A stretch of DNA of 64,000 nt from positions 25,828-89,827 of the forward strand of contig JAPLDT010000053.1 in NCBI GenBank assembly GCA_026391315.1. The letters run 5' to 3'. Under the pieces are notes generated by a model. That model did not search any database and was not told the origin of the DNA. It saw nothing but the letters and a program-made list of their open reading frames with translations. The position numbers and the translations under genes were made by a program. Each line of letters starts with the position of its first letter. Within the stretch, counting starts at the first letter, position 1. This document shows, piece after piece, positions 40,329-63,380 of the stretch. Origin of the DNA: Bacteroidia bacterium (GTDB taxonomy: Bacteria; Bacteroidota; Bacteroidia; Bacteroidales; Prolixibacteraceae).

Positions 40329-42275
40329 TTACACCTCCTTTTTCGGCTCAATTCCAAAGGTAAATCCGGCTTTAACACGGTCGATCAATTCCGGTAAAAT
40401 ATCTTGATATTCACCAATGATACCAAAATCGGCATTATGGAAAATGTTTGCTTTAGGGTTGTGGTCGATGGCAATAATTTTTTCGGCTTCTTTCATACCG
40501 GCAATGTGTTGAATGGCACCTGAAATGCCAACGGCAATATATAACTTAGGACGAATGGTTTTACCTGTTTGTCCAACTTGACGGGCATACTCGGCCACAC
40601 CTTCGTCAACTACCGGACGGCTACATGACCATTCAGCATTTACACCCTGACTTCTTAAAGCTTCGGCAAGTGCTTTGATCAAGCCTAAATTATCAGTGGT
40701 TGTGCCTCTACCTCCTGAAACGATGATGTCGGCTTCGAAAAGATTTTGCAATCCGCCTTCGCCTCTCACCGTTTTCAGAATCTCAACAACAAAATCCTGA
40801 TCGTTTAAAACAGGCTTGACACTTGAAACAATACCTTGTCTTCCCTCAACACGTTTAGGGACTTCAAATGTACCGGCACGTGCTGTTGAAATTTGAGGAC
40901 AAACAAAGCCAAGAATAGTGGCCAGTTTACTTTCTCCATAAGTAGGCCGACGTGATTCAAGAATGGGTGTATAAATCACTTTTTCTTTTTTATCAACGTA
41001 TTCTCCGATTTCAAGTCCGGTACAATCTGCGGTTACTCCGCTATCGGTTTTCATGCCTATCCGGGGAGCTAATTCACGTCCTGAGGTAGTTGCAGCAAAA
41101 AGAGCAATTTCCGGCTTCCGGACTTTGATCACTTGTTCAAAAATGGATGAAAACGGAAGTACCAGATATTCTTCAAACTTGTCGTCTTCGACAATGATTA
41201 CCTCATCCGAGCCATGTTCAATCAGTGTTTGAGCCAAATGCTGTACATTTTTCCCGATCATTAAAGTCATTACTTTGGTGCCGACACCTAATTGGGTGGC
41301 CAGGTTCCGGGCAGGAGTCAGCAATTCGAGCGAAGGTCTGGACACATTCCCGTTGGTTATTTCGGCCCAGGTAAGAATTCCGCTTGATCCATCTCTGAAG
41401 TCTTTTTCAGGGAAATCCGGACGCTCTGTATCTTTTTTTGCCTCAGCCTCCTTCTTCACCAAAACATTTCCGCCTTTTTTTAAGTTTGCGATTAAACTGT
41501 CAACCAAAGAAGCTTCATTGTGACCTTCAGACAAGGTAATAGGTGGACGTTCGCTTACGATATTAATCACTTTGGCAACAATAGTAGGGGACCCGCTAAT
41601 GCCAATCTTTTCGGTTCCTAATCCAATATCGTCAATTCCAAAAGTTGTAATTTTCAGGTTGCGGGCTTTGATGGCTCCGCTTAATGTCGGTTTACGGGGA
41701 GGAATTCCGGTTGGAGTTAATGAAATCACACAAGGCATGGGTAATTTCATCATTTGATATCCACCTTCAATGATCCTTTTTGCAATTACATTGCCTGTAC
41801 CGTCAGATTTTACACTCTCGACAAAAGTGGCTTGGGGAATTCCTATGTTTTCGGCTACCTGTGATGGAACGTGAGCCGTATCGCCATCGCTGGTTTGGCG
41901 GCCGGCTAAAATAATATATGGGTCTTTCGAATCTTTGGTAAAACCCAGGTGTTTCAGCATAGTCGCAATCGCCAACCCTGTCGCATACGTATCACTTCCG
42001 CCAAGTTTCCGGTCCGATAAAAGATATGCTTCGTCATAGCCCATCGAAATGGCCGTACGTAGAGCAACATCAAATGAACCCGGACCCATTGAGCAAACAA
42101 TTAACCTTGATTCAGGATTCTGTTTTTTTAGTTGTAAACCTGCTTCCAGTCCGAATGTGCAATCGATATTGATAATTGATTTTGCTTTTGTCCGGTCCAT
42201 TAGCCCGTCTTCACCCATTCTCATTTCGCTGGGTACCGGGACTTGTTTTATTAAACTTATTATCGTTAAAGCCAT
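40329..42275 (-). CDS. Fused electron transfer flavoprotein, beta-alpha (EtfBA)
   Basis: 648 aa, a single polypeptide holding both ETF subunits. Residues 1 to ~260 are EtfB-like (ISLIKQVPVPSEMRM, ILAGRQTSDGDTAHVPSQVA, and the EtfB signature TPTGIPPRKPTLSG). A ~60-residue Lys/Glu-rich linker follows. Residues ~325-648 are EtfA-like with the FAD-binding SGRELAPRIGMKTDSGV, SRPVVDEGV and the C-terminal signature AVGISGAIQHIAGMKEAEKIIAID. ETF passes electrons from acyl-CoA and other dehydrogenases to ETF-quinone oxidoreductase, whose gene lies directly upstream. The 21-nt gap indicates an operon. ETF is normally two proteins, so the fusion is unusual. Confidence 0.92.
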   Translation of the reverse strand: MALTIISLIKQVPVPSEMRMGEDGLMDRTKAKSIINIDCTFGLEAGLQLKKQNPESRLIVCSMGPGSFDVALRTAISMGYDEAYLLSDRKLGGSDTYATGLAIATMLKHLGFTKDSKDPYIILAGRQTSDGDTAHVPSQVAENIGIPQATFVESVKSDGTGNVIAKRIIEGGYQMMKLPMPCVISLTPTGIPPRKPTLSGAIKARNLKITTFGIDDIGLGTEKIGISGSPTIVAKVINIVSERPPITLSEGHNEASLVDSLIANLKKGGNVLVKKEAEAKKDTERPDFPEKDFRDGSSGILTWAEITNGNVSRPSLELLTPARNLATQLGVGTKVMTLMIGKNVQHLAQTLIEHGSDEVIIVEDDKFEEYLVLPFSSIFEQVIKVRKPEIALFAATTSGRELAPRIGMKTDSGVTADCTGLEIGEYVDKKEKVIYTPILESRRPTYGESKLATILGFVCPQISTARAGTFEVPKRVEGRQGIVSSVKPVLNDQDFVVEILKTVRGEGGLQNLFEADIIVSGGRGTTTDNLGLIKALAEALRSQGVNAEWSCSRPVVDEGVAEYARQVGQTGKTIRPKLYIAVGISGAIQHIAGMKEAEKIIAIDHNPKANIFHNADFGIIGEYQDILPELIDRVKAGFTFGIEPKKEV

Positions 42276-42296: not shown

Positions 42297-43955
42297 TTAC
42301 ATATTTTGAAAATCCGGACCATTGCCGCCATTGGGAACCACCCAGGTAATTCCGTCGCCGGGAGATTTAATGTCGCAAGTTTTGCAGTGCATACAATTTT
42401 CAGCATGAATCCGAAGCTCTTTCTTTCCGTCCTTGTTAATATGAAGCTCGTAAACTTCTGAAGAGCAGAAAAACTGTTCCGGAGCCCCGTATTGTTCTAT
42501 ATTGATGGCATTAAATTTCTCCTGATCTTTAATATGAAGGTGTACAACTTGCTGCTCGTCATGATAAACTCCTGAATGGTAAATATCGGTTGCTTTATCA
42601 AATGTCAATACTTTATCGAACTCCAATTTACCCTTAAACCGTTCTTTAAAAGGTTTCGCTTTAAGTTCGCTCAGCTTTTGTGTAGTCTGATAGTCGGCAT
42701 GAGATCGCAGCCTGCCAAAGAAACCTGCTCCACCGCTAATTAATTGCGTTCCAAAATGAAATCCTCCAACAATTGTTCCTTTTGCAAATCCTTGCCTGAA
42801 ATTACGGACAGGATACATATCATCGTGAATCATACTGTTATTTACCAAGGTCTCGTATTGTTGAAGGCTTTTTTCCGAAGTGTCGTTGTTTGATAATGCA
42901 TTGGCTGCTGTTTTCGCGGCTAACATTCCGGATTTGATCGCCAGATGGATGCCTTTTAATGCAGGCATAGTAACAAAACCTGCGCTATCACCAATGATCA
43001 AAGCATTGTCAACATACAATTTAGGAATAGCATAATGACCTCCTTCGGGAAGTGTCTTGGCGCCATATTCAAGTAATCTGCCACCTTTTAAAATCTTAGA
43101 AACAAAAGAAGTGGTTTTCCATACCTGCATGGCATCGTGAACATCGAAAGACGGATCTTTATAATCGAGTCCAACAACCAAACCAACGGCGACCTTATTA
43201 TCGTTTAATCCGTAAATAAAACCTCCGCCAAATTCATCGTTATTGAGCGGATAACCCATCGTGTGGTAGATCTGACCGGCCTCAATATTACCTTGCGGAA
43301 CTGACCACAATTCCTTGCAGCCTAATGAGTAAACCTGCTCATTTTTGTCCTTGTCCAGATTGAATTTTTTAATCAGCATTTTGGTCAGACTGCCCCGTGT
43401 TCCTTCGGCAAAAATGGTGATTTTAGCTTCGATGCGGGTACCGGGCTGAAAATTTTCCAGTTGATTTCCGTGATGATCCAAACCCGTATCTTTGGTTTTG
43501 GCACCGATTACTTTCCCGTCTTTGTACAAAATCTCATCTACGGCAAAACCCGTATATATTTCCACACCTTTTTCGGCTGCTTTTATGGCTAGATACTTAC
43601 ATATCTGGCCCAGGGAAGCGGTATAGTTGCCAATATTGTTCATATATGGAATATGAAATGGCAAAGTGATGTTTCCATTTTTGCTCAGCAATACCGTGCT
43701 GTCCTTTATTACCTTAGCATTGAAAGGAATTTCTGAGAGTTCAACTCCAGGTAATAATTCTTTAAAAACCTCAGGCTTAATTACTGCACCTGACAATATA
43801 TGGCTTCCGATAGAACCTCCTTTTTCGATTAACAATATTCTTTGAATCAGACCTTTGTGTTTTAAGCTATCCGCTAAATGAATTGCCGAGGCTAAGCCAG
43901 ATGGTCCACCTCCGATTATTAACACGTCTGTTGTTACCGTATCAACATTACTCAT
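42297..43955 (-). CDS. Electron transfer flavoprotein-quinone oxidoreductase
   Basis: 552 aa. It re-oxidises ETF and reduces membrane quinone. It carries the FAD-binding DVLIIGGGPSGLASAIHLAD at the N-terminus, the typical GSHILSGAVIKPEVFKELLP and a mid-domain FAD motif (ALIIGDSAGFVTMPALKGIH). The C-terminal ferredoxin-like 4Fe-4S site is CMHCKTCDIKSPGDGITWVVP plus an upstream Cys in FFCSSEVYEL. It is full length. It is the first gene of the etf operon and has a consensus Shine-Dalgarno sequence, which is rare in this phylum. Confidence 0.93.
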   Translation of the reverse strand: MSNVDTVTTDVLIIGGGPSGLASAIHLADSLKHKGLIQRILLIEKGGSIGSHILSGAVIKPEVFKELLPGVELSEIPFNAKVIKDSTVLLSKNGNITLPFHIPYMNNIGNYTASLGQICKYLAIKAAEKGVEIYTGFAVDEILYKDGKVIGAKTKDTGLDHHGNQLENFQPGTRIEAKITIFAEGTRGSLTKMLIKKFNLDKDKNEQVYSLGCKELWSVPQGNIEAGQIYHTMGYPLNNDEFGGGFIYGLNDNKVAVGLVVGLDYKDPSFDVHDAMQVWKTTSFVSKILKGGRLLEYGAKTLPEGGHYAIPKLYVDNALIIGDSAGFVTMPALKGIHLAIKSGMLAAKTAANALSNNDTSEKSLQQYETLVNNSMIHDDMYPVRNFRQGFAKGTIVGGFHFGTQLISGGAGFFGRLRSHADYQTTQKLSELKAKPFKERFKGKLEFDKVLTFDKATDIYHSGVYHDEQQVVHLHIKDQEKFNAINIEQYGAPEQFFCSSEVYELHINKDGKKELRIHAENCMHCKTCDIKSPGDGITWVVPNGGNGPDFQNM

Positions 43956-44203: not shown

Positions 44204-45820
44204 TTATTTTTGAAGAAGTTCTTCTGTTTTTAATTTGGAAGGTTTAAAAATCCCTATAACTCCATTCAATCCAACTGTCATCACAATATTGTAGAAGAAT
44301 GTAAGGAAACCTAAAAGCAAAAAAGTTCCACAAACAGCCGCTAAAATCATATAGAGGTTAAATTCTCCGTTTACATACAAAGAACGTCTTAACATACCCT
44401 GAAGTCCGGCCATGCCCATAAAAGCACCCATTCCGACTCCGCCAAGCAGCTGAGCCCAAAAGTGGAAGTTGGCTAGTTTCTGGCTATATATTTTGGCTCC
44501 GTTTGTCAGGATTGGAAGAAGAAAATAGATGGCTGAATAGAGTGTCATTGCCAGGCCAACCAGAACGGCAACGTGAACATGCGGCCCAATGACCCATTGG
44601 GTATTGTGTAATATCCGGTTAAGACCGATATCTGCCTGCATGATTCCGGCCGGAACTGCCAGGGCAAATCCGAGTAACCCACCAAGTAAGAATTTCAAAG
44701 GATTGGTCATTTTTAATGGACGGGCACTCCAAAGAGTAGTTAGCGTGATAAAGAATGCAAGACCCTGTGTAATCAACTCAAAAGCTGTAACTAATTCACC
44801 GGAAACTACTTTAAGGTACCCTGGTTGTGCCTGATCGGAAAGCAGATGGTGGGACCATACGGTCCATGAAACTACCAGTTCAACCAGCAAAGCTATACGT
44901 GCAACTTTTTCCATGTAAAGCTTTTTGCCAGTGATGAGGGTAGCCAGCAAATACCAGGTACCGGCAACAAAAATCAATACCAGACCGTCAGCAACCAAAT
45001 CAAGTCCCCACCAAAACCAGTTTTTATACAACAAAGCGTCAACAGCCGTCGATTTTAGGTCAACGCCAAAGAGCGCAGAAACCATATAAACCAAAATCAA
45101 AACACCGGTAAATAGAATTATGGCTGCATTGAAGGCCACATCTACAGTCCCCTGCGCAATAGCTGCTACCGGTAATGAAACCAGTTGTTCTTTCTTCTTA
45201 CTGCGGAATAGGTTGGCTACGGCAGTAATCCCTAATGCAGATTTAAGCAAGGAGGCTTTGGGCTGTTTTTCCCATCCATCAGGCGTAAAAGTAATGGTCT
45301 TAAAAATGTTAATCACAAAAAAGACAGTACCGAGCATAACCAGTGCGATACCGGTGATAAAAAAGGTTCCTCCAATGACACTAAATTGAGTGAAATCAGC
45401 TGGAAGAGGCCAATATAAAGTGTACAGAGGCGCATAGTGGGTAATAAATCCGGATAACCAAAAAATCATGGTTCCACCTGCAATCAGCCAACAGGTCCAG
45501 TTCCCTAGTTTTATACTCCATAGTGGTTTGCCCATCAGAAAGGGTACCAGAAACAGAAAAGCACCAAAAACAATGGAATAGGTAGAACCAAAGATACCAA
45601 CCAGCGGATGCGCCGTCATAATGGCGAAAAATTGTTTGGTTTCCAGACCAGGGATCGGCTGGATCTCATAGATCCGCATAATCATCCCTTCTATAACTGC
45701 AAAGGCATAATAAAAAAGTCCGATTACAACGAAGCGCAAAGTCATTTTCTGCATTCTGGTTAGCGTATCTGGCTTAAATACACCCTCTTCCCCCTTCATA
45801 AGTGTCTCAATAAATTTCAT
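44204..45820 (-). CDS. Non-canonical heme-copper oxidoreductase subunit I (candidate NO reductase)
   Basis: 538 aa with about 12-14 membrane helices. Heme-ligand histidines are visible: His71 in TAHPLVG (low-spin heme, helix II), His414 and His416 in GPHVHVAVL (helix X), and the CuB pair His324/325 in WSHHLLSD (helix VII). The helix-VI motif GHPEVY of oxygen reductases, giving the third CuB His and the cross-linked Tyr, reads WWGLDLVADG here: no His and no Tyr, but two Asp. The metal site must therefore differ from an O2 reductase. With a CuA-less subunit II and an Rrf2 regulator with three Cys, I infer a quinol-linked NO reductase of a recently proposed HCO-derived type. Oxygen reduction is unlikely. 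Confidence 0.75.
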   Translation of the reverse strand: MKFIETLMKGEEGVFKPDTLTRMQKMTLRFVVIGLFYYAFAVIEGMIMRIYEIQPIPGLETKQFFAIMTAHPLVGIFGSTYSIVFGAFLFLVPFLMGKPLWSIKLGNWTCWLIAGGTMIFWLSGFITHYAPLYTLYWPLPADFTQFSVIGGTFFITGIALVMLGTVFFVINIFKTITFTPDGWEKQPKASLLKSALGITAVANLFRSKKKEQLVSLPVAAIAQGTVDVAFNAAIILFTGVLILVYMVSALFGVDLKSTAVDALLYKNWFWWGLDLVADGLVLIFVAGTWYLLATLITGKKLYMEKVARIALLVELVVSWTVWSHHLLSDQAQPGYLKVVSGELVTAFELITQGLAFFITLTTLWSARPLKMTNPLKFLLGGLLGFALAVPAGIMQADIGLNRILHNTQWVIGPHVHVAVLVGLAMTLYSAIYFLLPILTNGAKIYSQKLANFHFWAQLLGGVGMGAFMGMAGLQGMLRRSLYVNGEFNLYMILAAVCGTFLLLGFLTFFYNIVMTVGLNGVIGIFKPSKLKTEELLQK

Positions 45821-45849
45821 ATTTATCTTATTTTAATTCTGTTTTTTAT

Positions 45850-46404
45850 CTATTCTCCACATTTTACCACAACAGCATCTTTGATCACCATGTTGTAACC
45901 TTCGGGACCTGAATATTCGGTTGACCTGATAGTATACACTCCGGGTTTATCAAATTGCCACAGGATATCATTTTTATGTCCGGGTACTACCTGCATCTGA
46001 AAGAGCATGGAATTGTCCTGCCTGAAAAGTCCGAATCCATAGGTGAGGTCTTTGGAAGTCACATTGAAAAGTACTTTGTCATTGCATTTGACGACAAGTT
46101 TTTCTGAAGGTAAGTGAAATTGATGCTTTTCAACCGAGATTTCAAAGACTTTGTCTGCTTTGATATTGGCCCGGTTAAGGTCCATCTCCGCCCAGGGAAT
46201 GGTGTTGTAGGTGACAATGTGCAACGAAACGCCCAATATCACAAGCATGGTTACGAATGCATAAAACAATCCATCTTTTGCTTTATGTTCTTTGCCTTGA
46301 CGCGTAATTTTATACCCGAACCAGCCCATCAGCGACAGGATTGCAAGGGAATAAAGGGTGTAGGCCAGTGTCTGGCCATGGAGAACAACTGAAGAGTCGA
46401 CCAT
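45850..46404 (-). CDS. Heme-copper oxidoreductase subunit II lacking the CuA site
   Basis: 184 aa. Two N-terminal membrane helices (LAYTLYSLAILSLMGWFGYKI; FVTMLVILGVSLHIVTY) precede a periplasmic cupredoxin domain. The CuA ligands are gone. The usual CxExCGxxHxxM reads STEYSGPEGYNM (Cys to Ser twice, His to Gly; Glu and Met kept), and the N-terminal His in the DxxHSF region is a Tyr (DLTYGFGL). It therefore cannot accept electrons from cytochrome c through CuA, and a quinol donor is more likely. I start at the ATG at 46404. The TTG at 46425 adds 7 residues. It lies 29 nt upstream of subunit I and 43 nt downstream of rrf2. Confidence 0.8.
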   Translation of the reverse strand: MVDSSVVLHGQTLAYTLYSLAILSLMGWFGYKITRQGKEHKAKDGLFYAFVTMLVILGVSLHIVTYNTIPWAEMDLNRANIKADKVFEISVEKHQFHLPSEKLVVKCNDKVLFNVTSKDLTYGFGLFRQDNSMLFQMQVVPGHKNDILWQFDKPGVYTIRSTEYSGPEGYNMVIKDAVVVKCGE

Positions 46405-46447
46405 AGTAATAATTTTAAAAGTCAAACATTTGGTTAATGAAGTTATA

Positions 46448-46867
46448 TTATGAAATCTGAAGTCTATTTTTTTTCTCTTTCAGATCATACAAGGTCGTAT
46501 TCGAAAGGGTATCCAGCATCTTGGTTTTGGCTTCTACCCAGGTTTCGTGCATGACACAAGGTTGTTCCTCCTTGCATTTCTGATGACCAAGAATACAGCT
46601 TCCCATTACGTCTGCTCCCTCTACAGTTTTGATTATGGAAGCAAGACTAATCTCTTCAAGGGGTTTTGCAAATACAAATCCTCCTTTTCTCCCTTTGGAA
46701 CTGCGGATAAAGCCCATTCTTGACAAATCTGTCATAAGCCTGCGCAAATACCGGCGTGGTATTTCCAATTCATCGTGAAGGAATTCGGCTGAAGATATTT
46801 CATTCTCACTGATTGCCATATAACTCAAAACTGTTAATGCGTATTCTGTTGTTTTATTTAAAATCAT
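46448..46867 (-). CDS. Rrf2-family regulator with three-cysteine cluster site (NsrR-like)
   Basis: 139 aa. The N-terminal winged helix (NKTTEYALTVLSYMA; PRRYLRRLMTDLSRMGFIRSSKGRKGGF) is typical of Rrf2. Cys91, Cys98 and Cys104 (CILGHQKCKEEQPC, spacing x6/x5) match the [Fe-S] cluster ligands of IscR/NsrR-type members. NsrR senses nitric oxide through such a cluster. As the first gene of the operon with the heme-copper oxidoreductase, it probably controls that operon and itself. I use the ATG at 46867. The longer ORF start at 46906 runs into the promoter. Distinguishing an NO, iron-sulfur or redox sensor is not possible from sequence alone. Confidence 0.82.
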   Translation of the reverse strand: MILNKTTEYALTVLSYMAISENEISSAEFLHDELEIPRRYLRRLMTDLSRMGFIRSSKGRKGGFVFAKPLEEISLASIIKTVEGADVMGSCILGHQKCKEEQPCVMHETWVEAKTKMLDTLSNTTLYDLKEKKNRLQIS

Positions 46868-46872
46868 ATATA

Positions 46873-46890
46873 TACTACAAAATGGTGGTA
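46873..46890. promoter_or_regulatory. Candidate Rrf2 operator
   Basis: TACTAC-AAAATG-GTGGTA, a 6-6-6 inverted repeat with one mismatch, starts 6 bp upstream of the rrf2 start codon in the 98-bp gap to the divergent PepSY gene. The position suits autoregulation and repression of the rrf2-subunit II-subunit I operon. Confidence 0.4.
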
Positions 46891-46965
46891 ATTTATTTTG
46901 AAACAAAGTTAAATAATTATTTCTTTACATCAAGTTTTGTTTTCAAAATTTTTTAACGGAAAAGT

Positions 46966-52940: not shown

Positions 52941-53801
52941 ATGAAATTGAAAGACTCCACAATTCATCAAATTGTAATATCTTCCCTGGTTGTGATTGTA
53001 GTGACCACTGTCTCTGTTCTGTTATACATAGGATACAATTACTATTCAATACCATTGGAGGAGCGGCCTTTCCATGCATTGAACCAAACTTTTAAAGCAA
53101 GCGGACTTGTTGGCCATGGTCTGGGCATTGTAGGTTCTTTGTTGATTCTGTTTGGAGTTTTCTCATACATGTTAAGGAAACGGTTGCGGATTTTCTCCAG
53201 GATTGGAATTCTTAAGCATTGGCTGGAGTTCCATATTTTCCTCTGTACCCTGGGTCCTTTTCTTATTCTCTTTCACACAACATTCAAATTCGGAGGAATT
53301 GTAGCGGTTAGTTTCTGGAGTATGGTGGCAGTCTTCCTGAGTGGAATTCTTGGACGATATATTTATCTTCAAATACCAAGATCTATTGAAGGTCAGGAGC
53401 TTACACTACTTGAGCTGGAAGATCAAAAAATTGAAATGAACAAACAGCTTAGGCAAACTGTTACATTGGATGAGAGCATTTATGAATTGATCGGTAATTT
53501 TCCGGATAAATCAAAAGGGCAAACTAGTTTTTTTGGTCGAAGCAAGGAAGAGCGAGTTGCTTTGAAAAAATTGAGAGTTGAATTAAAGAGTCAAAGAATC
53601 CCTATTAAGAGGGCAAAGGAAATTGTTCAACTTTTTAAGAGCCAGTTAGGTCTGAAGAAGCGGATAGAGCGATTGGTTACCATGCAGAAACTTTTTGCCT
53701 ATTGGCATGTTGCTCATTTACCATTTGCGCTGATTATGTTGATAGTCATGATCATTCATGTAGTGGTAGCAGTCACTTTTGGATACAAATGGATTTTTTA
53801 G
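52941..53801 (+). CDS. Membrane cytochrome b-like protein
   Basis: 286 aa. Five hydrophobic segments: ~9-31, ~52-75, ~92-113, ~116-140 and ~255-284. His residues lie at positions suited to bind heme between helices: LVGHGLG (TM2), EFHIF and ILFHTTF (TM3), YWHVAHLP and MIIHVVV (TM5). Between TM4 and TM5 is a ~110-residue charged helical region, probably cytoplasmic. I infer a diheme-type cytochrome b that passes electrons between the cytoplasmic side/quinone pool and periplasmic cytochromes. It is first in the five-gene cluster, and its stop is 2 nt before the next start. Confidence 0.65.
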   Translation: MKLKDSTIHQIVISSLVVIVVTTVSVLLYIGYNYYSIPLEERPFHALNQTFKASGLVGHGLGIVGSLLILFGVFSYMLRKRLRIFSRIGILKHWLEFHIFLCTLGPFLILFHTTFKFGGIVAVSFWSMVAVFLSGILGRYIYLQIPRSIEGQELTLLELEDQKIEMNKQLRQTVTLDESIYELIGNFPDKSKGQTSFFGRSKEERVALKKLRVELKSQRIPIKRAKEIVQLFKSQLGLKKRIERLVTMQKLFAYWHVAHLPFALIMLIVMIIHVVVAVTFGYKWIF

Positions 53802-53803
53802 CT

Positions 53804-55141
53804 ATGGAAGCACTAATAGAAAAATTGGTAACCTATTTGGTTGTTACGATTTTCATTGTAGCAATTATCGCAATCTATCTCTACAGACAAAAAAGGAATT
53901 CCCGTATAGTGGAAGCTAAAATTGCCATCGCAAAAGAAGAGGGAATGCATGAACCTGTCTCCTTACATCCTGTCATTGATGTGAACAGCTGCATCAAAAG
54001 CGGAGCCTGCATTACAGCATGTCCTGAAAAGGATATTATTGGGATCAAAGATGGGAAAGCCACGATAATAAATGCATCGCATTGTATCGGCCACGGCGCC
54101 TGTTTTCATGCCTGTCCTGTTCAAGCCATTACCCTGTTTATTGGAACCGAAAAGCGGGGTGTTGAACTACCACATGTCGATCAAACCTTTGAATCCAACG
54201 TGCCTGGAGTTTATATTGCCGGAGAGATGGGTGGAATGGGGCTGATCAAGAATTCGGTCGAGCAGGGGAAGCAAGCTGTTGAGAATCTGATCAAAAAGAT
54301 AGATAAAAGTGTGAACGCCCAGTATGATCTGATCATCATAGGTGCCGGTCCGGCAGGTGTGGCAGCCTCTTTGAACGCAAAAAAAAATAAACTAAATGCC
54401 TTGACCCTGGAACAGGATAGTTTAGGCGGGACAGTATTTACGTTTCCCCGTCAAAAAATTGTCATGACTTCTGCCATGGATTTGCCGCTGCATGGGAAAG
54501 TTAAGTTATTTGAAACCAGTAAATTGGAGTTGTTAAATCTTTGGACAGAAGTAATTTCAAAGAATCAAATTAGTTTGATAGAAAATGCAAAAGTTGAGTC
54601 TGTTACTCCGACCGATAAGTATTTTATAACCAAGACATTAAGCGGGGATGAATATACTTCAAGAAAAGTTTTGTTGGCCATTGGCAGGAGAGGATCTCCG
54701 CGGAAACTGAACGTTCCTGGTGAAGAGAGTATGAAAGTGGCTTACCGATTACTTGAACCTGAGCTTATTGAAGGTAAAAAAATTCTGGTAGTAGGAGGAG
54801 GGGATTCAGCGATTGAATCGGCATTGCTTCTTGTCGACCAAAATCAGGTGACAATATCATATAGAAGCGAGGTTTTCGGGAGGTTAAAACCCAAAAACAA
54901 TGAAAAAATAAAGGAAGCCATCGCGAATAATAAGGTTAATGTTCTGTTTAATTCCAACATAGCCGGCATTGAGGACCATCAGGTAAAGATACAGAAGACA
55001 GATAGTGAAAAGGAATTGGTTCTGGAAAACGACCTGGTGTATATTTTTGCTGGAGGAGAATTGCCAACACAATTTCTTGAAAAGATAGGAATCCGAATTA
55101 CTAAGAAATTTGGGGAAGCCATTTTAAAACACGAGGAGTAA
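53804..55141 (+). CDS. Membrane-anchored Fe-S / flavin NAD(P)-type oxidoreductase
   Basis: 445 aa. N-terminal membrane anchor (LVTYLVVTIFIVAIIAIYLY), then two ferredoxin-like motifs, CIKSGACITACP and CIGHGACFHACP. Next a pyridine-nucleotide-disulfide oxidoreductase/TrxR-like fold with FAD site IIGAGPAGVAAS and a second Rossmann GGGDSAIESALLL. In both Fe-S motifs the usual second Cys is replaced (Ser, His). The short link PHVDQTFESNVPGVYIAGEMGGMGL lies between them and the flavin part. It likely passes electrons between NAD(P)H (or ferredoxin) and the adjacent cytochrome b. The start at 53804 follows the upstream stop by 2 nt; an ATG at 53789 is in frame and would overlap. Confidence 0.8.
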   Translation: MEALIEKLVTYLVVTIFIVAIIAIYLYRQKRNSRIVEAKIAIAKEEGMHEPVSLHPVIDVNSCIKSGACITACPEKDIIGIKDGKATIINASHCIGHGACFHACPVQAITLFIGTEKRGVELPHVDQTFESNVPGVYIAGEMGGMGLIKNSVEQGKQAVENLIKKIDKSVNAQYDLIIIGAGPAGVAASLNAKKNKLNALTLEQDSLGGTVFTFPRQKIVMTSAMDLPLHGKVKLFETSKLELLNLWTEVISKNQISLIENAKVESVTPTDKYFITKTLSGDEYTSRKVLLAIGRRGSPRKLNVPGEESMKVAYRLLEPELIEGKKILVVGGGDSAIESALLLVDQNQVTISYRSEVFGRLKPKNNEKIKEAIANNKVNVLFNSNIAGIEDHQVKIQKTDSEKELVLENDLVYIFAGGELPTQFLEKIGIRITKKFGEAILKHEE

Positions 55142-55162: not shown

Positions 55163-56767
55163 ATGATTAAGAGCAAGTCTTTACAAAGGATAATCGTCAT
55201 TTTATGTGCCATGATACTGTCAATGAGAGGAATGGCTCAAATTTCGCCCGGAGATCTCACCAAAGTGCATGCCCATCTGGAAGGGATGGCCAATTGTACC
55301 TTGTGTCATACCTTGGGGGCCAAGGTTTCCAACGAAAAATGCCTTGATTGTCACAAAGAAATCAAAAAACGTTTGGATGAATCAAAAGGATTTCATGCTT
55401 CCTCCAAAGTAAAAGGAAAAGATTGCATCATTTGTCACAGTGACCATTACGGACGAAATTATGATATTGTCCACCTAGTGAAAGATAAATTTGATCACAA
55501 CGATACCGGTTACAAATTAGAAGGAAAGCACTCAAAAAAAGATTGTCTGGATTGCCATAAGAAGGAGAATATTGCTGACAAACAGCTAAAGAGCAAACAT
55601 GAGACGTTTTTGGGGTTGAACGATCTTTGTTTGACCTGTCATGAAGATTACCACCAAAAGACGCTCTCTGTGAACTGTTTGAATTGTCATATCGTCGATG
55701 CCTTTAAACCTGCTTCAAAATTCAACCATACAAAGGCCAAGTACCAGTTACGGGGAAAACATACAGAGGTGACCTGTGTGAAGTGCCACGCTTTAAACGT
55801 AAGAAATGGGAAAAATTTTCAGCAATTTACCGGTTTACAATTTCAAAATTGTGTGAATTGTCACAAGGATCCGCACGAAAACAAATTCGGCCAAAATTGC
55901 ACCCAATGTCATGTGGAAACCTCTTTCCAGACTGTTAAGGGTATTGGTCAGTTTGACCATAGCAAAACGGGATTTTTACTGGAAGGACGACATGCTCAGG
56001 TAGCCTGTAAATTATGTCATAAAGTAAATATCACTGCGCCGGTCAAGCACGAAAAATGTACGGATTGCCACAAAGACTACCATAAAAATCAATTTGTGAA
56101 AGATGGCAAATCCCCGGATTGTTCTGAGTGTCATGATGCGACGGGTTTCACCAGGTTTTCATATTCGTTTGAAAAGCACAACTTAACCAAATTCAAGCTT
56201 GAGGGAGCGCATCAGGCTACACCCTGCTTTGAATGTCATAAGAAAGAGAAGGATTGGAATTTCAGGGGGATCGGTGAACGCTGTGTCGATTGCCACAAGG
56301 ACATTCACCAAAACTTGATCGATGCCAAATATTACCCTTCCCAAAAGTGTGAAAATTGCCATCAATCATCGGCCTGGAGTGACGTAAAGTTTGACCATCA
56401 ACTTACATCATTCGCCCTTGAAGGCAAACATGCTACTGCAACTTGCAGAAAATGCCATTTCAAAGATAACAGAGTAAGTATTGACAGTCAGAGATTTAAT
56501 GCCTTGAAAGCTAGTTGTGAGAATTGTCACAACGATGTTCATCACGCACAATTCAATGAGAATAAGGAGATCGTTTGCCTGAGGTGTCATGGTTTCGAAA
56601 ATTGGAAACCAGAAAAATTTAACCACAATTCCACACGGTTTAAGTTAGACGGAGGTCACAAGGATGTTGCATGTATAAAATGCCATAAACCCATAACAGA
56701 AGGGAATTTGAGATATATTAACTACAAATTTAAAGAGATATTATGCGCAACTTGTCACTTACAATAG
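55163..56767 (+). CDS. 20-heme c-type cytochrome
   Basis: 534 aa with signal peptide (IIVILCAMILSMRGMAQ). I count 20 CXXCH heme-binding motifs, from CTLCH near residue 45 to CATCH at the C-terminus, i.e. one per ~27 residues, with many extra His for axial ligation. The recurring pattern FxHxxTxFxLEGxHxxVxCxxCH places a second His near each heme, typical of cytochrome c3/c7-like multiheme proteins. It is likely periplasmic. It carries electrons from the inner membrane module to the 43-heme protein encoded next. Its stop overlaps the next start by 25 nt, so expression is coupled. No lipobox is present. Confidence 0.9.
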   Translation: MIKSKSLQRIIVILCAMILSMRGMAQISPGDLTKVHAHLEGMANCTLCHTLGAKVSNEKCLDCHKEIKKRLDESKGFHASSKVKGKDCIICHSDHYGRNYDIVHLVKDKFDHNDTGYKLEGKHSKKDCLDCHKKENIADKQLKSKHETFLGLNDLCLTCHEDYHQKTLSVNCLNCHIVDAFKPASKFNHTKAKYQLRGKHTEVTCVKCHALNVRNGKNFQQFTGLQFQNCVNCHKDPHENKFGQNCTQCHVETSFQTVKGIGQFDHSKTGFLLEGRHAQVACKLCHKVNITAPVKHEKCTDCHKDYHKNQFVKDGKSPDCSECHDATGFTRFSYSFEKHNLTKFKLEGAHQATPCFECHKKEKDWNFRGIGERCVDCHKDIHQNLIDAKYYPSQKCENCHQSSAWSDVKFDHQLTSFALEGKHATATCRKCHFKDNRVSIDSQRFNALKASCENCHNDVHHAQFNENKEIVCLRCHGFENWKPEKFNHNSTRFKLDGGHKDVACIKCHKPITEGNLRYINYKFKEILCATCHLQ

Positions 56768-59700
56768 TCATTTTGATGATGGCTTTCTGTGTGCAGGGGC
56801 AAACTTCACCTCACGGGAAAGCTTTTCACGTCGATTGTGCCCAGTGTCATACTTCTAATAGTTGGAAAGTTAATACCAAGGACATAAAATTTAACCACGA
56901 CAATACAGATTTTAAGCTGGTTGGACAGCACACTGTGATCAATTGCAGGGATTGTCACCTGACGCTCACTTTTAAAGATGGAAGAAGGAATTGTATTGAT
57001 TGTCATATTGATGTGCACAATCAGTCCCTTGGAAAAGATTGTGAAAAGTGCCACACCCCGAAAACCTGGATTATCAGTGATATTACATCTATACATCAGA
57101 AAACCAGGTTTCCTCTCCTTGGGGCCCACAAATCGGTTAATTGCACTGAATGTCATAAATCAGCCTCTAATTTTCAGTATGAACCACTAGGAATTGAGTG
57201 TGTCAATTGTCACCTCAGCGATTTTCAGAAAACGACCACTCCAAACCATGTAACAAGTAAGTATTCAACAGACTGTCTGGAATGCCACAATCAAAATTCA
57301 AGCAGTTGGCACACAGGATTAATCAACCACGATTTTTTCCCGTTAACCGGCGGACATAACGTTGGATGCGGGCTTTGTCATACGACAACCCCCTTCACGA
57401 AATTATCGACTGAATGTAATACCTGTCATAACAAACATTTTACTGCTGCGCAAACCCCTAAGCATGTTGAAGCCGGAATTCCGGTTAAATGTGAAACTTG
57501 CCACAACATTTCTGCATGGAAACCATCAACGTTCAATCATATCTCAACGGGTTTTGAATTAAAAGGAGCTCACAAGAATGTAGTACAATGTTCTGATTGT
57601 CATAAAGGTAATCTGACATCAGCAAAACAGGAGTGTTTAAGTTGTCATCAGGTTCAGTACGACAATGCACTAAATCATAAAAAAGTAAATTATCCGGTTG
57701 ATTGTATTAAATGTCATACGCAAAACAACTGGGTGGAGAATATTTTTAGCCATTCAACGACCAATTATCCATTAACAGGAGCTCACTTAAAAGCCAATTG
57801 TGCCGATTGCCATTTGACAACCCTTGCAGGAACAACAACCGTTTGCAGCAATTGTCACCTGGCAGCTTACACCGGCTCGCAAATACCGGCGCACGTAACT
57901 GCCGGCATTCCAAAGGATTGTTCCACTTGTCATACTACAGCCGCATGGAAACCTTCCAGTTTCAATCATACCACAACAGGATATGAACTAAAAGGGGCTC
58001 ACAAAACTCTGGTGCAATGTTCGCTGTGCCACTTAGGAAATGTTACCTCAGCACCTACAACATGTGTTGGCTGCCACCAGGCAAAATATGATGCTGCCCC
58101 TAACCACAAAGCTCAGGGCTATCCGGTGGATTGTTCGTCTTGCCATACCCAGAATAACTGGCTGGAGAATGGTTTTAACCACGCAGCGACAAGTTTCCCC
58201 TTGACTGGCGCACACACCACTGTTTTGTGCTCGAAATGTCATGCAGTTGGATTTAAAGGAACACCCAATGTATGTAGTAGTTGCCACTTGCCGGTCTATA
58301 CGAGTTCTCAGCTTCCTGGACATGTGGCCGCAGGAATACCAAAGGAATGTGCCACCTGCCATACAACGGCTTCGTGGAAACCATCAGCTTTCAACCATAC
58401 CACTACCGGGTATGAATTAAAGGGCAGTCATAAGTTGATTGTTCAGTGTTCTTCATGCCACAAGGGCAATGTCACTACGGCCCCGCAAGTTTGTATTGGT
58501 TGCCATCAGGCACAGTATGATGTTGCCCCGGGACACAAACAAAGCGGATTCTCGACTGATTGTGCAAAATGTCATTCCCAGGATAATTGGCTATCATCCA
58601 GCTTTGATCATAGTACAACCAATTTCCCGTTAACCGGATCACATACCAAGGTGCTTTGTTCTGTCTGCCATGTGAACGGATACATTGGAACACCAACTGC
58701 TTGCAGTAGTTGCCATTTACCGGTTTATACCAGTTCTCAGCTGCCAGCACACGTTGCTGCAGGAATACCCAAGGAGTGTGCCCAGTGTCATACACCCGCG
58801 TCCTGGAAACCCTCCCTGTTCAACCATACTACCACCGGTTATGAATTAAAAGGTGCGCACAAAAATATTGTTCAGTGTTCGCAATGTCACAAAGGGAACC
58901 TTACATCCGCCCCATTGACTTGTATTGGGTGCCATCAGTCCAACTATGATACGGCCCTCAATCATAAATCCCAGGGATATCCTACTGATTGTACCATTTG
59001 TCACACTCAGAATAACTGGCTTGAGAATAGTTTCAATCACGCAGCAACAGCTTTCCCATTGACTGGTGCTCACACCACAGTATTGTGTTCAAAATGTCAT
59101 ACCGTAGGTTTTAAAGGGACTTCCACTGTTTGCAGCAGTTGCCATCTGCCGGTCTATTCCAGTTCTCAGTTGCCTGGCCACGTAGCAGCAGGTATTCCTA
59201 CCGATTGCTCAACCTGTCACAATACTACCGCATGGAAACCTTCTTTATTTAACCATACCACTACCGGTTATGAGTTGAAAGGGGCACACAAAAATATCGT
59301 TCAATGTTCAGATTGCCATAAGGGGAATGTCACAACCGCTCCACAGACTTGCGTCGGATGTCATCAGAGCAATTATGATGCTGCTTTGAATCACAAGGCT
59401 CAGGGGTATCCGACAGATTGTACGATATGCCACACACAGAACAACTGGCTGGAAAATATTTTCAACCATGCTACAACTGCCTTCCCATTGACCGGAGCCC
59501 ATACAACTGTTGTCTGTGCAAAATGCCATACCACAGGATTCAAGGGAACCTCCACGCTCTGTTTCACTTGTCATGCAGCCAAATACAATGCCTCGACAAA
59601 TCCGAACCATCTTGGGGCGAAATTTCCCACCAATTGTGAAATTTGTCATTCAACCACAGCATGGACTCCTTCTACCTATAATCATGATGCCCAGTATTTC

Positions 59701-59904
59701 CCGATTAACAGTGGCAAACACAGGGGAGTTTGGACGTTATGTAGCGAATGCCACAATGTTTCGACCAATTATGCCGCTTTTACCTGCATTTTGTGTCATA
59801 CACACAGTAACAAAGCATCGGTAGATAGTGAACATAAGGGTGTAACGAATTATACCTACACAGCTACATCGTGCTACGTTTGTCATCCAAGGGGAACCAA
59901 TTAG
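56743..59904 (+). CDS. 43-heme c-type cytochrome with five six-heme modules
   Basis: 1053 aa with signal peptide (LSLTIVILMMAFCVQG). I count 43 CXXCH motifs: 9 in the N-terminal ~235 residues, 30 in five tandem modules and 4 near the C-terminus. Each module is 143 residues and starts HVxAGIPxxCxTCH, with WKPSxFNHTTTGYELKG, NVTTAPxxCxGCH, CxICHTQNNWLEN and FPLTGAHTTVLCSKCH following in order. With one heme per ~24 residues this could be a long heme wire. Its start overlaps the 20-heme gene by 25 nt. The following gene encodes an outer-membrane barrel. Extracellular or outer-membrane location is inferred; there is no lipobox or T9SS domain. Confidence 0.9.
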   Translation: MRNLSLTIVILMMAFCVQGQTSPHGKAFHVDCAQCHTSNSWKVNTKDIKFNHDNTDFKLVGQHTVINCRDCHLTLTFKDGRRNCIDCHIDVHNQSLGKDCEKCHTPKTWIISDITSIHQKTRFPLLGAHKSVNCTECHKSASNFQYEPLGIECVNCHLSDFQKTTTPNHVTSKYSTDCLECHNQNSSSWHTGLINHDFFPLTGGHNVGCGLCHTTTPFTKLSTECNTCHNKHFTAAQTPKHVEAGIPVKCETCHNISAWKPSTFNHISTGFELKGAHKNVVQCSDCHKGNLTSAKQECLSCHQVQYDNALNHKKVNYPVDCIKCHTQNNWVENIFSHSTTNYPLTGAHLKANCADCHLTTLAGTTTVCSNCHLAAYTGSQIPAHVTAGIPKDCSTCHTTAAWKPSSFNHTTTGYELKGAHKTLVQCSLCHLGNVTSAPTTCVGCHQAKYDAAPNHKAQGYPVDCSSCHTQNNWLENGFNHAATSFPLTGAHTTVLCSKCHAVGFKGTPNVCSSCHLPVYTSSQLPGHVAAGIPKECATCHTTASWKPSAFNHTTTGYELKGSHKLIVQCSSCHKGNVTTAPQVCIGCHQAQYDVAPGHKQSGFSTDCAKCHSQDNWLSSSFDHSTTNFPLTGSHTKVLCSVCHVNGYIGTPTACSSCHLPVYTSSQLPAHVAAGIPKECAQCHTPASWKPSLFNHTTTGYELKGAHKNIVQCSQCHKGNLTSAPLTCIGCHQSNYDTALNHKSQGYPTDCTICHTQNNWLENSFNHAATAFPLTGAHTTVLCSKCHTVGFKGTSTVCSSCHLPVYSSSQLPGHVAAGIPTDCSTCHNTTAWKPSLFNHTTTGYELKGAHKNIVQCSDCHKGNVTTAPQTCVGCHQSNYDAALNHKAQGYPTDCTICHTQNNWLENIFNHATTAFPLTGAHTTVVCAKCHTTGFKGTSTLCFTCHAAKYNASTNPNHLGAKFPTNCEICHSTTAWTPSTYNHDAQYFPINSGKHRGVWTLCSECHNVSTNYAAFTCILCHTHSNKASVDSEHKGVTNYTYTATSCYVCHPRGTN
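57463..59607 (+). repeat. Five tandem 429-bp repeats inside the 43-heme gene
   Basis: The codon for the His of HVxAGIP occurs at 57463, 57892, 58321, 58750 and 59179, and an equivalent His at 59608: exactly 429 bp apart each time. Modules 2-5 also share long stretches of DNA identity (e.g. accactaccggttatgaatt variants), so they arose by recent duplication or gene conversion. Confidence 0.92.
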
Positions 59905-59983
59905 TATTTGTTGGATGAAAAGGAAAAGAATAAATTGATATACTGGTGGTCAGCAGAAATTTTTTAACATATTAAATTGATTG

Positions 59984-61588
59984 ATGAGAATTTTTATTAT
60001 TGTACTGGGAATGTTTCTGTTTATTCAGGTTATCTCAGCTCAAAACAAAAAAAACGAGATAGAGGGAGCTGTAACATTCATGACAGCTCAAAATATATAT
60101 GTTAAATTTCTGTCCGCCAAAGGGATCAGTACCGGTGATAAAATATTTATCCGAAAAAATGATCTTTTGGTTGAAGTATTGTCTGTTGAAAATGCTTCAT
60201 CGGTTTCCTGTGTTGGGAAGCCGGTTGGTTCAGAAAAATTAAAAGTCGGAGATAAAGTGATCGCTTTGGTTACTAAGGAAGATGCTGTAGCTGTACAAGA
60301 AATACAAAAGGAACAAGTTAACCAGGCGGTTGCTGATACTTCAAAATCCCTGAATCTAAAAGCAGGACCAACGCCTCTATTTAGGAAAGAACGAATAGAT
60401 GGTCGGGTGCAAATTTCCTCTTACACAAATCTTTCCAATTTGCAGCCAGCGAACAACCGACTTCGGTATATCTTTTCGATGAATGCCTCCAATATCTCTA
60501 ATTCGCGTTTCTCACTGGATACTTACATCTCTTTTGCGCATAAGCTAAATGACTGGACACCAGTTAAGGACAATATCTTTAATGCGCTGAAAATCTACGA
60601 CTTGAATCTGAAATATGAAGCAGATAGTAAAACAACGATTTGGCTGGGCCGGAAAATAAATCCCAAGATCTCCAGTCTTGGAGCCATTGATGGGGTACAG
60701 TTTGAGATGAATTCCGGCCAATTCTTCTGGGGTGGCGTAGTTGGTTTTCGACCGGATTATGTCGATTACAGTTTTAACGGGAAGCTATTGGAATATGGTG
60801 CGTTTATTGGCCATACGATAAAGAATGACAATGGTGTCATGCAGACCTCCCTGGCCGGATTTAATCAAACAAACTCCGGAAATACCGACCGCCGGTTTGT
60901 CTATTTTCAGCATGACAACTCTCTTTTTAATAACCTGAACCTGTTTGTCTCTTCGGAAGTTGACCTCTATAAAATGGTTAACGGAATTCCTTCAAATGGA
61001 CTGTCGCTGACAAGTTTATACCTGATGCTGAACTACAGGATATCCAAAAGATTATCTGTTTCAACTTCTTACGACAACCGTAAGAATATTATTTATTACG
61101 AGACCTTTAAGAACTATATTGACGTAATGCTTGCGGATGCCACACGTCAGGGTGTGCAAGCCAGGATCAATTACAGACCCGTTAACTATATGAGTGTGGG
61201 TGTATCTGCTAGTTACTGGGATAGGGCAGGGGATAGCAAGCCAACCAAAAATTTTAATGTAATATTTAACTATTCCCAATTAACTTCCTTGAAAATTTCG
61301 ACTACTTTAACTGCCAATATTTTAAAAACCAGTTATGTCGATGGAGTCGTTTATGGTGTCAGATTTGACAAGGACTTTCTGAATGGCAAGATGAACTGGG
61401 GAGTGAACTATAGGTTTGTCGATTATAACTATCTCATTTCTTCTTCGAAACTCATTGAACACATCGGTGGAATTGATTTATCTTATCAATTTACCCGCAA
61501 ATTCTCGATGTCTTTCAATTACGAAGGAACCTTCGAAAAACAGAATAAATATCACCAGATCTATTGCAGTCTGATCAAGCGCTTCTAG
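59984..61588 (+). CDS. Outer-membrane beta-barrel protein of the cytochrome cluster
   Basis: 534 aa. Signal peptide (FIIVLGMFLFIQVISAQ), then a ~85-residue SH3-like domain (NIYVKFLSAKGISTGDKIFI, KLKVGDKVIALV), a linker, then ~380 residues in alternating amphipathic strands (LSNLQPANNRLRYIFSMNAS, WLGRKINPKISSLGAIDG, LSVSTSYDN) ending in the C-terminal Phe typical of barrels (SLIKRF). It has no heme motif. In the context of two large multiheme cytochromes it fits the porin partner of a porin-cytochrome conduit. I use the ATG at 59984; the track's TTG at 59981 adds one residue. Start is 79 nt after the 43-heme stop. Confidence 0.75.
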   Translation: MRIFIIVLGMFLFIQVISAQNKKNEIEGAVTFMTAQNIYVKFLSAKGISTGDKIFIRKNDLLVEVLSVENASSVSCVGKPVGSEKLKVGDKVIALVTKEDAVAVQEIQKEQVNQAVADTSKSLNLKAGPTPLFRKERIDGRVQISSYTNLSNLQPANNRLRYIFSMNASNISNSRFSLDTYISFAHKLNDWTPVKDNIFNALKIYDLNLKYEADSKTTIWLGRKINPKISSLGAIDGVQFEMNSGQFFWGGVVGFRPDYVDYSFNGKLLEYGAFIGHTIKNDNGVMQTSLAGFNQTNSGNTDRRFVYFQHDNSLFNNLNLFVSSEVDLYKMVNGIPSNGLSLTSLYLMLNYRISKRLSVSTSYDNRKNIIYYETFKNYIDVMLADATRQGVQARINYRPVNYMSVGVSASYWDRAGDSKPTKNFNVIFNYSQLTSLKISTTLTANILKTSYVDGVVYGVRFDKDFLNGKMNWGVNYRFVDYNYLISSSKLIEHIGGIDLSYQFTRKFSMSFNYEGTFEKQNKYHQIYCSLIKRF

Positions 61589-61721: not shown

Positions 61722-63380
61722 GGGCCTGCTGAAAAAGTGTTTACTATTTGATTTCATGTCAATTATAACGATATTTGAGAGAATAAGTGCAAGGAATTAT
61801 GGAAAAAGTAAAAAGAAAGCATGCACCGACTCCAGCATACATGAGTCCGAATCAACTTACTTTGGATGCATTTAAGAGTCCATTCGAGCGTGAACTTAAC
61901 CCCAGTAACAGATGGGTAGTTCTTGCCGGACTGATTCCATGGGACGAGATTAGCTCATTATATCTCAAAAATGTACCAGCGAGTAATACGGGGCGTCCTG
62001 CTTTAAATCCTAGAATTGTTATAGGTTCTCTGATCATTAAACACATGTGTAATCTTGACGATCGTGAGGCAGTTGATCAGATAGCTGAAAACATTTATAT
62101 GCAGTACTTTCTGGGCTATACGAGCTTTATCAAGGAACCACCGTTTGATGCCTCTCTGTTTGTTGATTTCCGGAAGAAACTTGGAATGGATAGCCTGAAT
62201 GCCATCAACGAAAAGATAGCTGAACTAAAGGCTGATTTTCTTTTTCAGAACGACAATAGAAAACCTGAGAAAGATGATCATGATTCATCTGGTGCTGACA
62301 ATCATTCTGATTCCTCTCAGGTTGAAAATAAAGGCAGAATCATCTTTGATGCCACAGCCTGTCCTCAGGATATTGCTTATCCAACGGATCTGGACCTGCT
62401 TTCAGATGCAAGAGAGAAATCAGAGCAATTGATTGATCAGCTCTACAACCCCGTATTGCATAAGAAAAAGCCCAGGACTTATCGTAAAATTGCCCGTCAC
62501 CGTTACCTGAAAACAGCTCAGAAAAAGAATAAAACTCACAAAGAAATACGCAAAGCGACAGGTAGCCAGTTAGGATTTTTAAAACGTAATCTTAACTCAA
62601 TCAATAGGTTATTAGACTCATATAAAACGATCCCTCTCAAGCACAAAAACCACAAATACCTTTTGGTGATAAACACGTTGTATGCTCAACAGAAAGAGAT
62701 GTATAGCAATGGAGTTCATCGCATTGATGATAGGATTGTCAGTATCCACCAACCTCATGTTCGACCAATCGTTCGCGGGAAAAGCCAGGCAAAAGTCGAG
62801 TTTGGGGCAAAGATCCACCTTTCACTCATTGATGGAATATCATTTCTCGATCAGCTGAGCTGGGATGCCTTTAATGAAGGAAGCCACATGATGGAGTACA
62901 TTGAGAAATACCGGAATCGTTTTGGCTTTTATCCCAAGGAGGTTCTGGCAGATCAGATCTACTGCAACCGAATTAACCGTGCTGCCCTGAAAGAGAAAGG
63001 AATCAAGCTGCTGGCCAAGCCACTGGGAAGGCCATCGGCTGTGCAAAAACACGTAAGTCCGGGAGAACGTAATCCAATCGAAGGAAAGTTTGGACAAGCC
63101 AAAACAGCCTACGGGTTAAACCGTGTAAAGGCCAGACTTAGAGAAACCAGCGAATCGTGGATTGCCTGCATCATCCTGGTGCTTAACCTGGTCAAATTGG
63201 CCGGGGTGGCACTCCCATATCTTATTGTCAACTTGCTTTCCAATTTAACAGCACAGGTGATAAAAATATGTCGATCATATTCTTACCAAGATTTTCAGAT
63301 AGATTTAAAAATTATTATACAAATGCTCTACTCTAAACAAGTTGAGCTAAAAAATCTGGCCTGAGTTTAACAGCAGACCC
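61722..63380 (+). mobile_element. Insertion sequence, IS5/IS1182-like, 1659 bp
   Basis: The terminal inverted repeats are GGGCCTGCTG on the left and CAGCAGACCC on the right (one mismatch over 10 bp), with TAATTA direct repeats outside. The single internal ORF encodes a DDE transposase of 521 aa and takes up almost all of the element. All parts look intact, so it may still be active. It inserted into a small gene read on the opposite strand. Confidence 0.85.
61799..63364 (+). CDS. IS5/IS1182-type DDE transposase
   Basis: 521 aa from the ATG at 61799 (the track's GTG at 61787 adds four residues). The N-terminal domain (PPFDASLFVDFRKKLG, IIKHMCNLDDREAV) is the DUF772-type DNA-binding part. The catalytic acids are probably in IIFDATACPQD, VLADQIYCN and NPIEGKFGQAKTAYG, matching DDE spacing. 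The C-terminal helix WIACIILVLNLVKLAG is typical of this group. It is complete without frameshift, so the element is probably functional or recently so. Confidence 0.9.
   Translation: MEKVKRKHAPTPAYMSPNQLTLDAFKSPFERELNPSNRWVVLAGLIPWDEISSLYLKNVPASNTGRPALNPRIVIGSLIIKHMCNLDDREAVDQIAENIYMQYFLGYTSFIKEPPFDASLFVDFRKKLGMDSLNAINEKIAELKADFLFQNDNRKPEKDDHDSSGADNHSDSSQVENKGRIIFDATACPQDIAYPTDLDLLSDAREKSEQLIDQLYNPVLHKKKPRTYRKIARHRYLKTAQKKNKTHKEIRKATGSQLGFLKRNLNSINRLLDSYKTIPLKHKNHKYLLVINTLYAQQKEMYSNGVHRIDDRIVSIHQPHVRPIVRGKSQAKVEFGAKIHLSLIDGISFLDQLSWDAFNEGSHMMEYIEKYRNRFGFYPKEVLADQIYCNRINRAALKEKGIKLLAKPLGRPSAVQKHVSPGERNPIEGKFGQAKTAYGLNRVKARLRETSESWIACIILVLNLVKLAGVALPYLIVNLLSNLTAQVIKICRSYSYQDFQIDLKIIIQMLYSKQVELKNLA

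Follow-up and report, generated by a model that had tools for sequence, protein, structure and literature searches.

A tandem-heme cytochrome array varying in three-heme steps, the candidate variable-length part of a porin-cytochrome conduit in Bacteroidota

What is the function of a cytochrome c with 43 hemes and a regularly repeated interior, and what sets its length? The question is raised by one gene in a window of 64,000 nucleotides from a Bacteroidia bacterium (contig JAPLDT010000053.1). In a preliminary description it was read as five exact repeats of a 429-bp, six-heme module, recently expanded by unequal recombination, with selection to keep the heme spacing and with module numbers that may differ between strains. 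We compared the gene and its operon with relatives across the phylum.

The 43-heme cytochrome and its operon

The open reading frame at 56743–59904 (+ strand) encodes 1053 amino acids with exactly 43 CXXCH motifs, the number given before, and is assigned as a cytochrome c ("accordion" cytochrome) from its CXXCH count, Pfam matches and amino-acid-to-heme ratio. At 24.5 amino acids per heme it is near the lower limit for wrapping hemes. An N-terminal cap (56743–57462) holds the signal peptide, a conserved SPHG motif and hemes 1–9. It is followed by five six-heme modules with 30 hemes (57463–57891, 57892–58320, 58321–58749, 58750–59178 and 59179–59607, all +), each a pair of triheme units A and B, and by a C-terminal cap with the four hemes 40–43 (59608–59904, +). 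The C-terminal cap is orthologous across species, and in a clustering of units those of the N-terminal cap group by position across species. The regularity of the modules is as described: the boundary His codons lie at 57463, 57892, 58321, 58750 and 59179, there are no indels, the units are in frame and the six CXXCH motifs occupy identical positions in each of the five.

The heme spacings of a module are 33, 15, 23, 32, 15 and 25 and repeat without indel. This period of six runs beyond 57463–59607, with 33 consecutive spacings obeying it. Unit A has spacings of 33, 15 and 23, the last being that to the next unit, and unit B of 32, 15 and 25; along the chain 13 consecutive triheme units of 70–78 amino acids each are recognisable. 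The fundamental block of the array is three hemes (about 72 amino acids), and a six-heme module joins one A and one B unit. In an alignment of 30 three-module segments, six His residues outside the CXXCH motifs are invariant per six-heme module, equivalent to one per heme. Because of these extra conserved His residues, the sequences would fit bis-His ligation of all hemes in the array. An AlphaFold2 model of three modules, made from the same 30 segments, is of low confidence (pLDDT 61, pTM 0.28).

The operon runs on one strand in the order b-cytochrome-like inner-membrane protein (IMP), FAD/FeS oxidoreductase, 20-heme cytochrome, 43-heme cytochrome and 22-stranded β-barrel. The IMP (52941–53801, +; 286 amino acids) is b-cytochrome-like in its motifs, with HX13H at residues 98/112 and 259/273. 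All four of these His residues are kept in 43 of 43 aligned orthologues, which counts in favour of a role in an electron conduit as discussed below. Its helix count is a rough estimate, with four clear segments; it has no match in Pfam or NCBIfam, and its gene holds the same operon position throughout the phylum. The membrane-anchored oxidoreductase (53804–55141, +; 445 amino acids; Pfam Fer4_10 and Pyr_redox_3, hydropathy) consists of one N-terminal hydrophobic helix, a 4Fe-4S dicluster domain and a pyridine-nucleotide/FAD oxidoreductase domain. The 20-heme cytochrome c (55163–56767, +; 20 CXXCH motifs; Pfam Cytochrome_C7/c3_2) has 26.7 amino acids per heme and is the predicted periplasm-spanning partner; its gene overlaps that of the 43-heme protein by 25 bp.

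The gene of the outer-membrane β-barrel, the predicted conduit porin (59984–61588, +; 535 amino acids), starts with ATG at 59984, directly after the TTG at 59981 used in the list of open reading frames. The AlphaFold2 model, built with 43 orthologues, has 22 strands and a small N-terminal β domain (pLDDT 80.9, pTM 0.66). A Foldseek search with this model gives outer-membrane barrels throughout the 50 matches listed, FimD/PapC ushers first, and MtrB is absent among these 50. The N-terminal β domain (59984–60280, residues about 25–97) is conserved in the orthologues, has no Pfam match and is possibly a docking domain for a cytochrome.

A three-heme ladder beside partners of constant length

The array cytochrome was searched for in 140 genomes of the same family and found in 60, the barrel in 393 genomes of the order and found in 40, and the IMP in 396 genomes drawn across the phylum and found in 40. 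A search for named relatives among genome contigs gave three loci only, one of them an Aminicenantes protein at 32%. Within the genus, G002 and G005 (83–85% complete) gave no match, and in G007 the locus is cut by the contig end. Across Bacteroidota, nearly all of the loci whose flanks are complete have the same gene set, which again favours a conduit. The oxidoreductase gene is placed after the barrel in some outer classes, and the exceptions are one locus with the inner-membrane gene only (G820) and one in which no barrel is recognised (G866).

About 100 loci were taken for heme counting, giving 90 array copies with intact start and end from 86 genomes. They range from 10 to 61 hemes, and in 82 the heme number is 1 + 3n (10, 13, 16, 19, 22, 25, 28, 31, 34, 37, 40, 43, 46, 52, 55, 58 or 61), a further point for the conduit. 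The binomial probability of 82 of 90 against an expectation of one third is 2e-30, a figure that is descriptive only, the genomes being related. Of the eight copies off the ladder, two have broken reading frames, through an in-frame stop in G004 and through overlapping frames in G050; in the others motifs are missing or shifted, which often shows as a gap of 42 amino acids in place of 15 + 27. In the family and order sample the span from first to last heme grows by 72.6 amino acids per three hemes (r = 0.999). The proposed selection on heme spacing is supported by this ladder together with the invariant CXXCH motifs and six His residues per module.

The other components hardly vary. The partner cytochrome has 20 hemes in 81 complete copies, 23 in four and 19 in two, and the coefficient of variation of its heme span is 3%, versus 42% for the array cytochrome. 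The barrel is 537 ± 6 amino acids long across operons, and its length correlates at most weakly with heme count (Spearman 0.29). Earlier reports of many-heme cytochromes thus become a rule, in which one protein shifts in three-heme steps and its partners stay constant. The length of the predicted wire seems to be open to evolution in a machine that otherwise stays fixed.

Several individual loci deserve mention. In L104, L108, L116 and L129 the partner has 23 hemes, so that it too differs by three hemes, and the added unit sits at differing places. In G004 (L023:936-3242) a 31-heme orthologue is cut by one in-frame stop into halves of 15 and 16 hemes, and is either a pseudogene or an assembly or consensus error. 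Some operons hold two array cytochromes of unequal length (G123, L080:3464-8521; L062, L063, L066, L091, L095 and L107), for example 55 + 13, 22 + 16, 19 + 31, or 37 plus at least 54 hemes, either adjacent or with one after the barrel gene. A complete operon with 23- and 40-heme cytochromes lies on plasmid pEMTOL02 of Emticicia oligotrophica DSM 17448 (NC_018749.1, L129), with ccsA, a gene for cytochrome c biogenesis, beside it; the products of the operon are annotated just as cytochrome c3 family, NAD(P)-binding and hypothetical proteins. This is a cultured type strain with a plasmid-borne 40-heme version, in a phylum whose extracellular electron transfer has received little study.

Age of the window array and change of length among relatives

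The repeat, called exact before, is exact in length and heme register but not in sequence: in pairwise comparison of the five modules, nucleotide identity is 0.60–0.75 and amino-acid identity 0.59–0.80. Recent expansion of this array by unequal recombination would account for the constant 429-bp spacing without indel, and it could draw on 429-bp duplications of recent date in relatives. It is refuted for this genome by the synonymous differences, pS being 0.73–0.90 for all module pairs; since synonymous sites are saturated between modules, the window array is old. The longest exact run common to the modules is 17 nt, the top 200-nt match of the array with itself is at 80% only, and Tandem Repeats Finder reports no array here. 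For several internal units, the match to a unit of another species equals or exceeds that to their siblings in this array. Recent expansion in this genome is accordingly given very little credence, and that part of the preliminary description is rejected.

Duplication in steps of 429 bp is nevertheless real in the family. Stretches of 200 nt that are 96–100% identical and exactly 429 bp apart occur in G046, G022, G064, G066, G067, G069 and G060, among them genomes of few contigs (G064, G066, G067 and G069); in G046 the duplication extends over 268 bp at 100%. In other lineages the repeat measures 219 bp (three hemes) or 672 bp (nine hemes), and 12-heme units are found too. Lineages differ in the recombination unit, not in the three-heme quantum.

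The suggestion that module number varies is borne out between sister species. G008 and G022 have 33 and 39 hemes with partner cytochromes that are 96.7% identical; G064 and G065 have 40 and 28 (partner 94.4%), the difference being exactly 858 nt; G042 and G060 have 13 and 52 (partner 89.3%); and G077 and G080 have 25 and 31 (partner 88.1%). Such whole-module differences between sisters speak for a conduit with a recombining array. The 13-heme protein of G042 aligns to both ends of the 52-heme protein of G060, as if the entire array had been excised or inserted. On a 64-tip tree of the 20-heme partner, at least 42 changes of array length are needed, little below what shuffled labels give (mean of 49, minimum of 44). 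Within the genus of the window, the caps are orthologous by position and the internal units are mixed. The window array has 43 hemes versus 31–34 in complete congeners, and therefore its length changed inside the genus; judged from the sequences, its last length changes are old, the modules having since diverged to saturation.

Module numbers in draft genomes could in principle be assembly artefacts, as many of the relatives are fragmented drafts in which near-identical modules can collapse, and the array of G046, with its 268 bp at 100%, is vulnerable in this respect. The window copy count is immune to such collapse because its modules are too diverged. Single-contig genomes cover the range (G067 with 40 hemes, G008 with 33, G068 with 28, G113 with 16 and G070 with 13), and the 40 hemes of Emticicia are read from a complete plasmid sequence. 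An artefact as the general explanation is highly improbable. Whether array length is a recombination-driven trait that varies within Bacteroidota populations, so that cells or strains of one species would carry conduits whose reach differs in three-heme quanta, is a bolder proposal, which we put at somewhat under even odds. If true, it would provide a natural length series for the effect of wire length on extracellular electron transfer. The natural versions span 10 to 61 hemes, in part between very closely related species, and would allow conduction to be measured against length.

A candidate conduit and its alternatives

The array cytochrome is probably (we estimate a probability of about 0.68) the variable-length part of a conduit for extracellular electron transfer that resembles the PCC3 porin-cytochrome clusters. 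In the model that we propose, the di-heme-b-like IMP and the 4Fe-4S/FAD oxidoreductase would pass electrons to, or take them from, the quinone or NAD(P)H pool, the fixed-length 20-heme cytochrome would bridge the periplasm and the β-barrel would carry the chain across the outer membrane. The (13+3n)-heme cytochrome, held by its conserved N- and C-terminal caps, would extend the electron path outside the cell, with flow outward or inward. Its middle would be made of tandem bis-His triheme units that are gained or lost solely in complete form, since a fraction of a unit would upset the heme spacing. The length, and with it any benefit of longer reach, would be set by unequal homologous recombination among the units (429 bp in the window lineage, 219 or 672 bp in others).

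The main argument from which we infer an outward projection of the array cytochrome is the fixed partner set against the variable array: the part that spans the periplasm, a compartment of fixed width, should be of constant length, while one that ends freely is under no such constraint. On the other side, no T9SS or lipoprotein signal is recognised on the 43-heme protein, which leaves its route to the surface without an explanation, and the low confidence of the array model also counts against the reading.

PCC3 clusters have an IMP of about 300 amino acids with two HX13H motifs, on helices 3 and 5 of five, and very large multiheme cytochromes (MHCs) with amino-acid-to-heme ratios of 22–39 (PMC5566968). 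Their heme number is variable: in Gallionellaceae the extracellular protein has 10–35 hemes and the periplasmic one 21, 24 or 27 (PMC10734462), and up to 85 hemes occur outside this family (PMC5566968; PMC10734462). Compared by gene content and description, the window operon and nearly all relatives with complete flanks have the same components, namely a porin, a very large variable cytochrome, a second large cytochrome and an IMP of similar size with two HX13H motifs (286 amino acids here). Both ratios (24.5 for the 43-heme and 26.7 for the 20-heme protein) fall in the PCC3 range, and the large cytochrome is likewise rich in T, S, A and G, with internal repeats and a variable heme number. Unlike PCC3, the host is a member of Bacteroidota, the operon has an extra FAD/FeS oxidoreductase, the partner is nearly fixed at 20 hemes and the 1 mod 3 ladder is clear. 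Most PCC3 porins are very large, with up to 42 strands (PMC5566968), as opposed to 22 predicted here, which may count against the conduit.

PCC3 and its variable heme number are already known, and the triheme ladder and the fixed partners appear to be new. The ladder, the fixed partner and the recombination evidence are stated nowhere in the open-access literature searched, which is no proof of novelty. He et al. (2019; PMC6344600) describe novel candidate porin-cytochrome clusters from humic-lake and bog Bacteroidetes and an unbinned contig with a 51-heme protein; set side by side by description, these candidates have the phylum in common with the window operon, two of whose relatives are Bacteroidia MAGs. 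A Methylophaga plasmid protein that matches the IMP at 27% was rejected as a link to PCC3, since it belongs to a small cluster with one 7-heme cytochrome but no large MHC.

The array could instead be a periplasmic electron store, a capacitor in which module number is tuned to charge and not to reach. This role was proposed for large PCC3 cytochromes (PMC10734462), and it agrees with the plain signal peptide and with the failure to recognise a surface-export signal. Nearly all loci whose flanks permit the check carry the β-barrel, however; the second cytochrome, of invariant length, already suits a fixed-width periplasm, and a 61-heme protein would need to fold back within it. We regard storage as unlikely. 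Somewhat less likely still is that the array is a polymer whose units are c7 triheme domains like those of GSU1996 from Geobacter, a known nanowire family that works alike, as a wire of three-heme units in one chain. The three-heme quantum, Cytochrome_C7 as the top Pfam family and a weak TIGR04257 match point that way; the latter scores 22.4 bits against a cut-off of 40. The heme spacing order here, 15-25-33, is unlike that of c7 (PpcA), with spacings of about 24-14 and then a long link, and we know of no porin operon of this sort for GSU1996-type polymers. A PDB search with the array profile gives a weak match to MtrF only (E = 0.0024).

The preferred reading, a PCC3-like conduit, shares with the MtrAB/DmsE decaheme conduit the combination of a cytochrome with an outer-membrane barrel, and the 20-heme protein gives a weak TIGR03508 match; it differs in that the barrel has no MtrB match in its top 50. 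Membership of the MtrA/DmsE family (TIGR03508) was rejected for both cytochromes (46.2 bits for the 20-heme and 27.1 for the 43-heme protein against a cut-off of 192.2), as was that of the HmcA hexadecaheme cytochromes (NF045713; 61.1 against 400). PF14522 (Cytochrome_C7 and related), a broad superfamily label, is matched with 129.5 bits by the 43-heme and 75.2 by the 20-heme protein (gathering cut-off 24.8). PDB searches with the single sequences of the 43-heme protein, the 20-heme protein and the IMP, or with the barrel profile, gave nothing.

In the wider window, no RNA families were found between 50 and 64 kb, and a promoter and terminator scan was near chance. The barrel gene is followed directly by a DDE transposase gene (PF13586, DUF772; 61799–63364). 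Upstream of the operon, at a distance of about 6 kb, is a COX1-family gene (heme-copper oxidase/nitric oxide reductase-like; 44204–46906), together with a small companion and a gene resembling a regulator. The β and α subunits of an electron-transfer flavoprotein (ETF) are apparently fused in one 648-residue open reading frame (40329–42275), which adjoins an ETF-quinone oxidoreductase gene (42297–43955).
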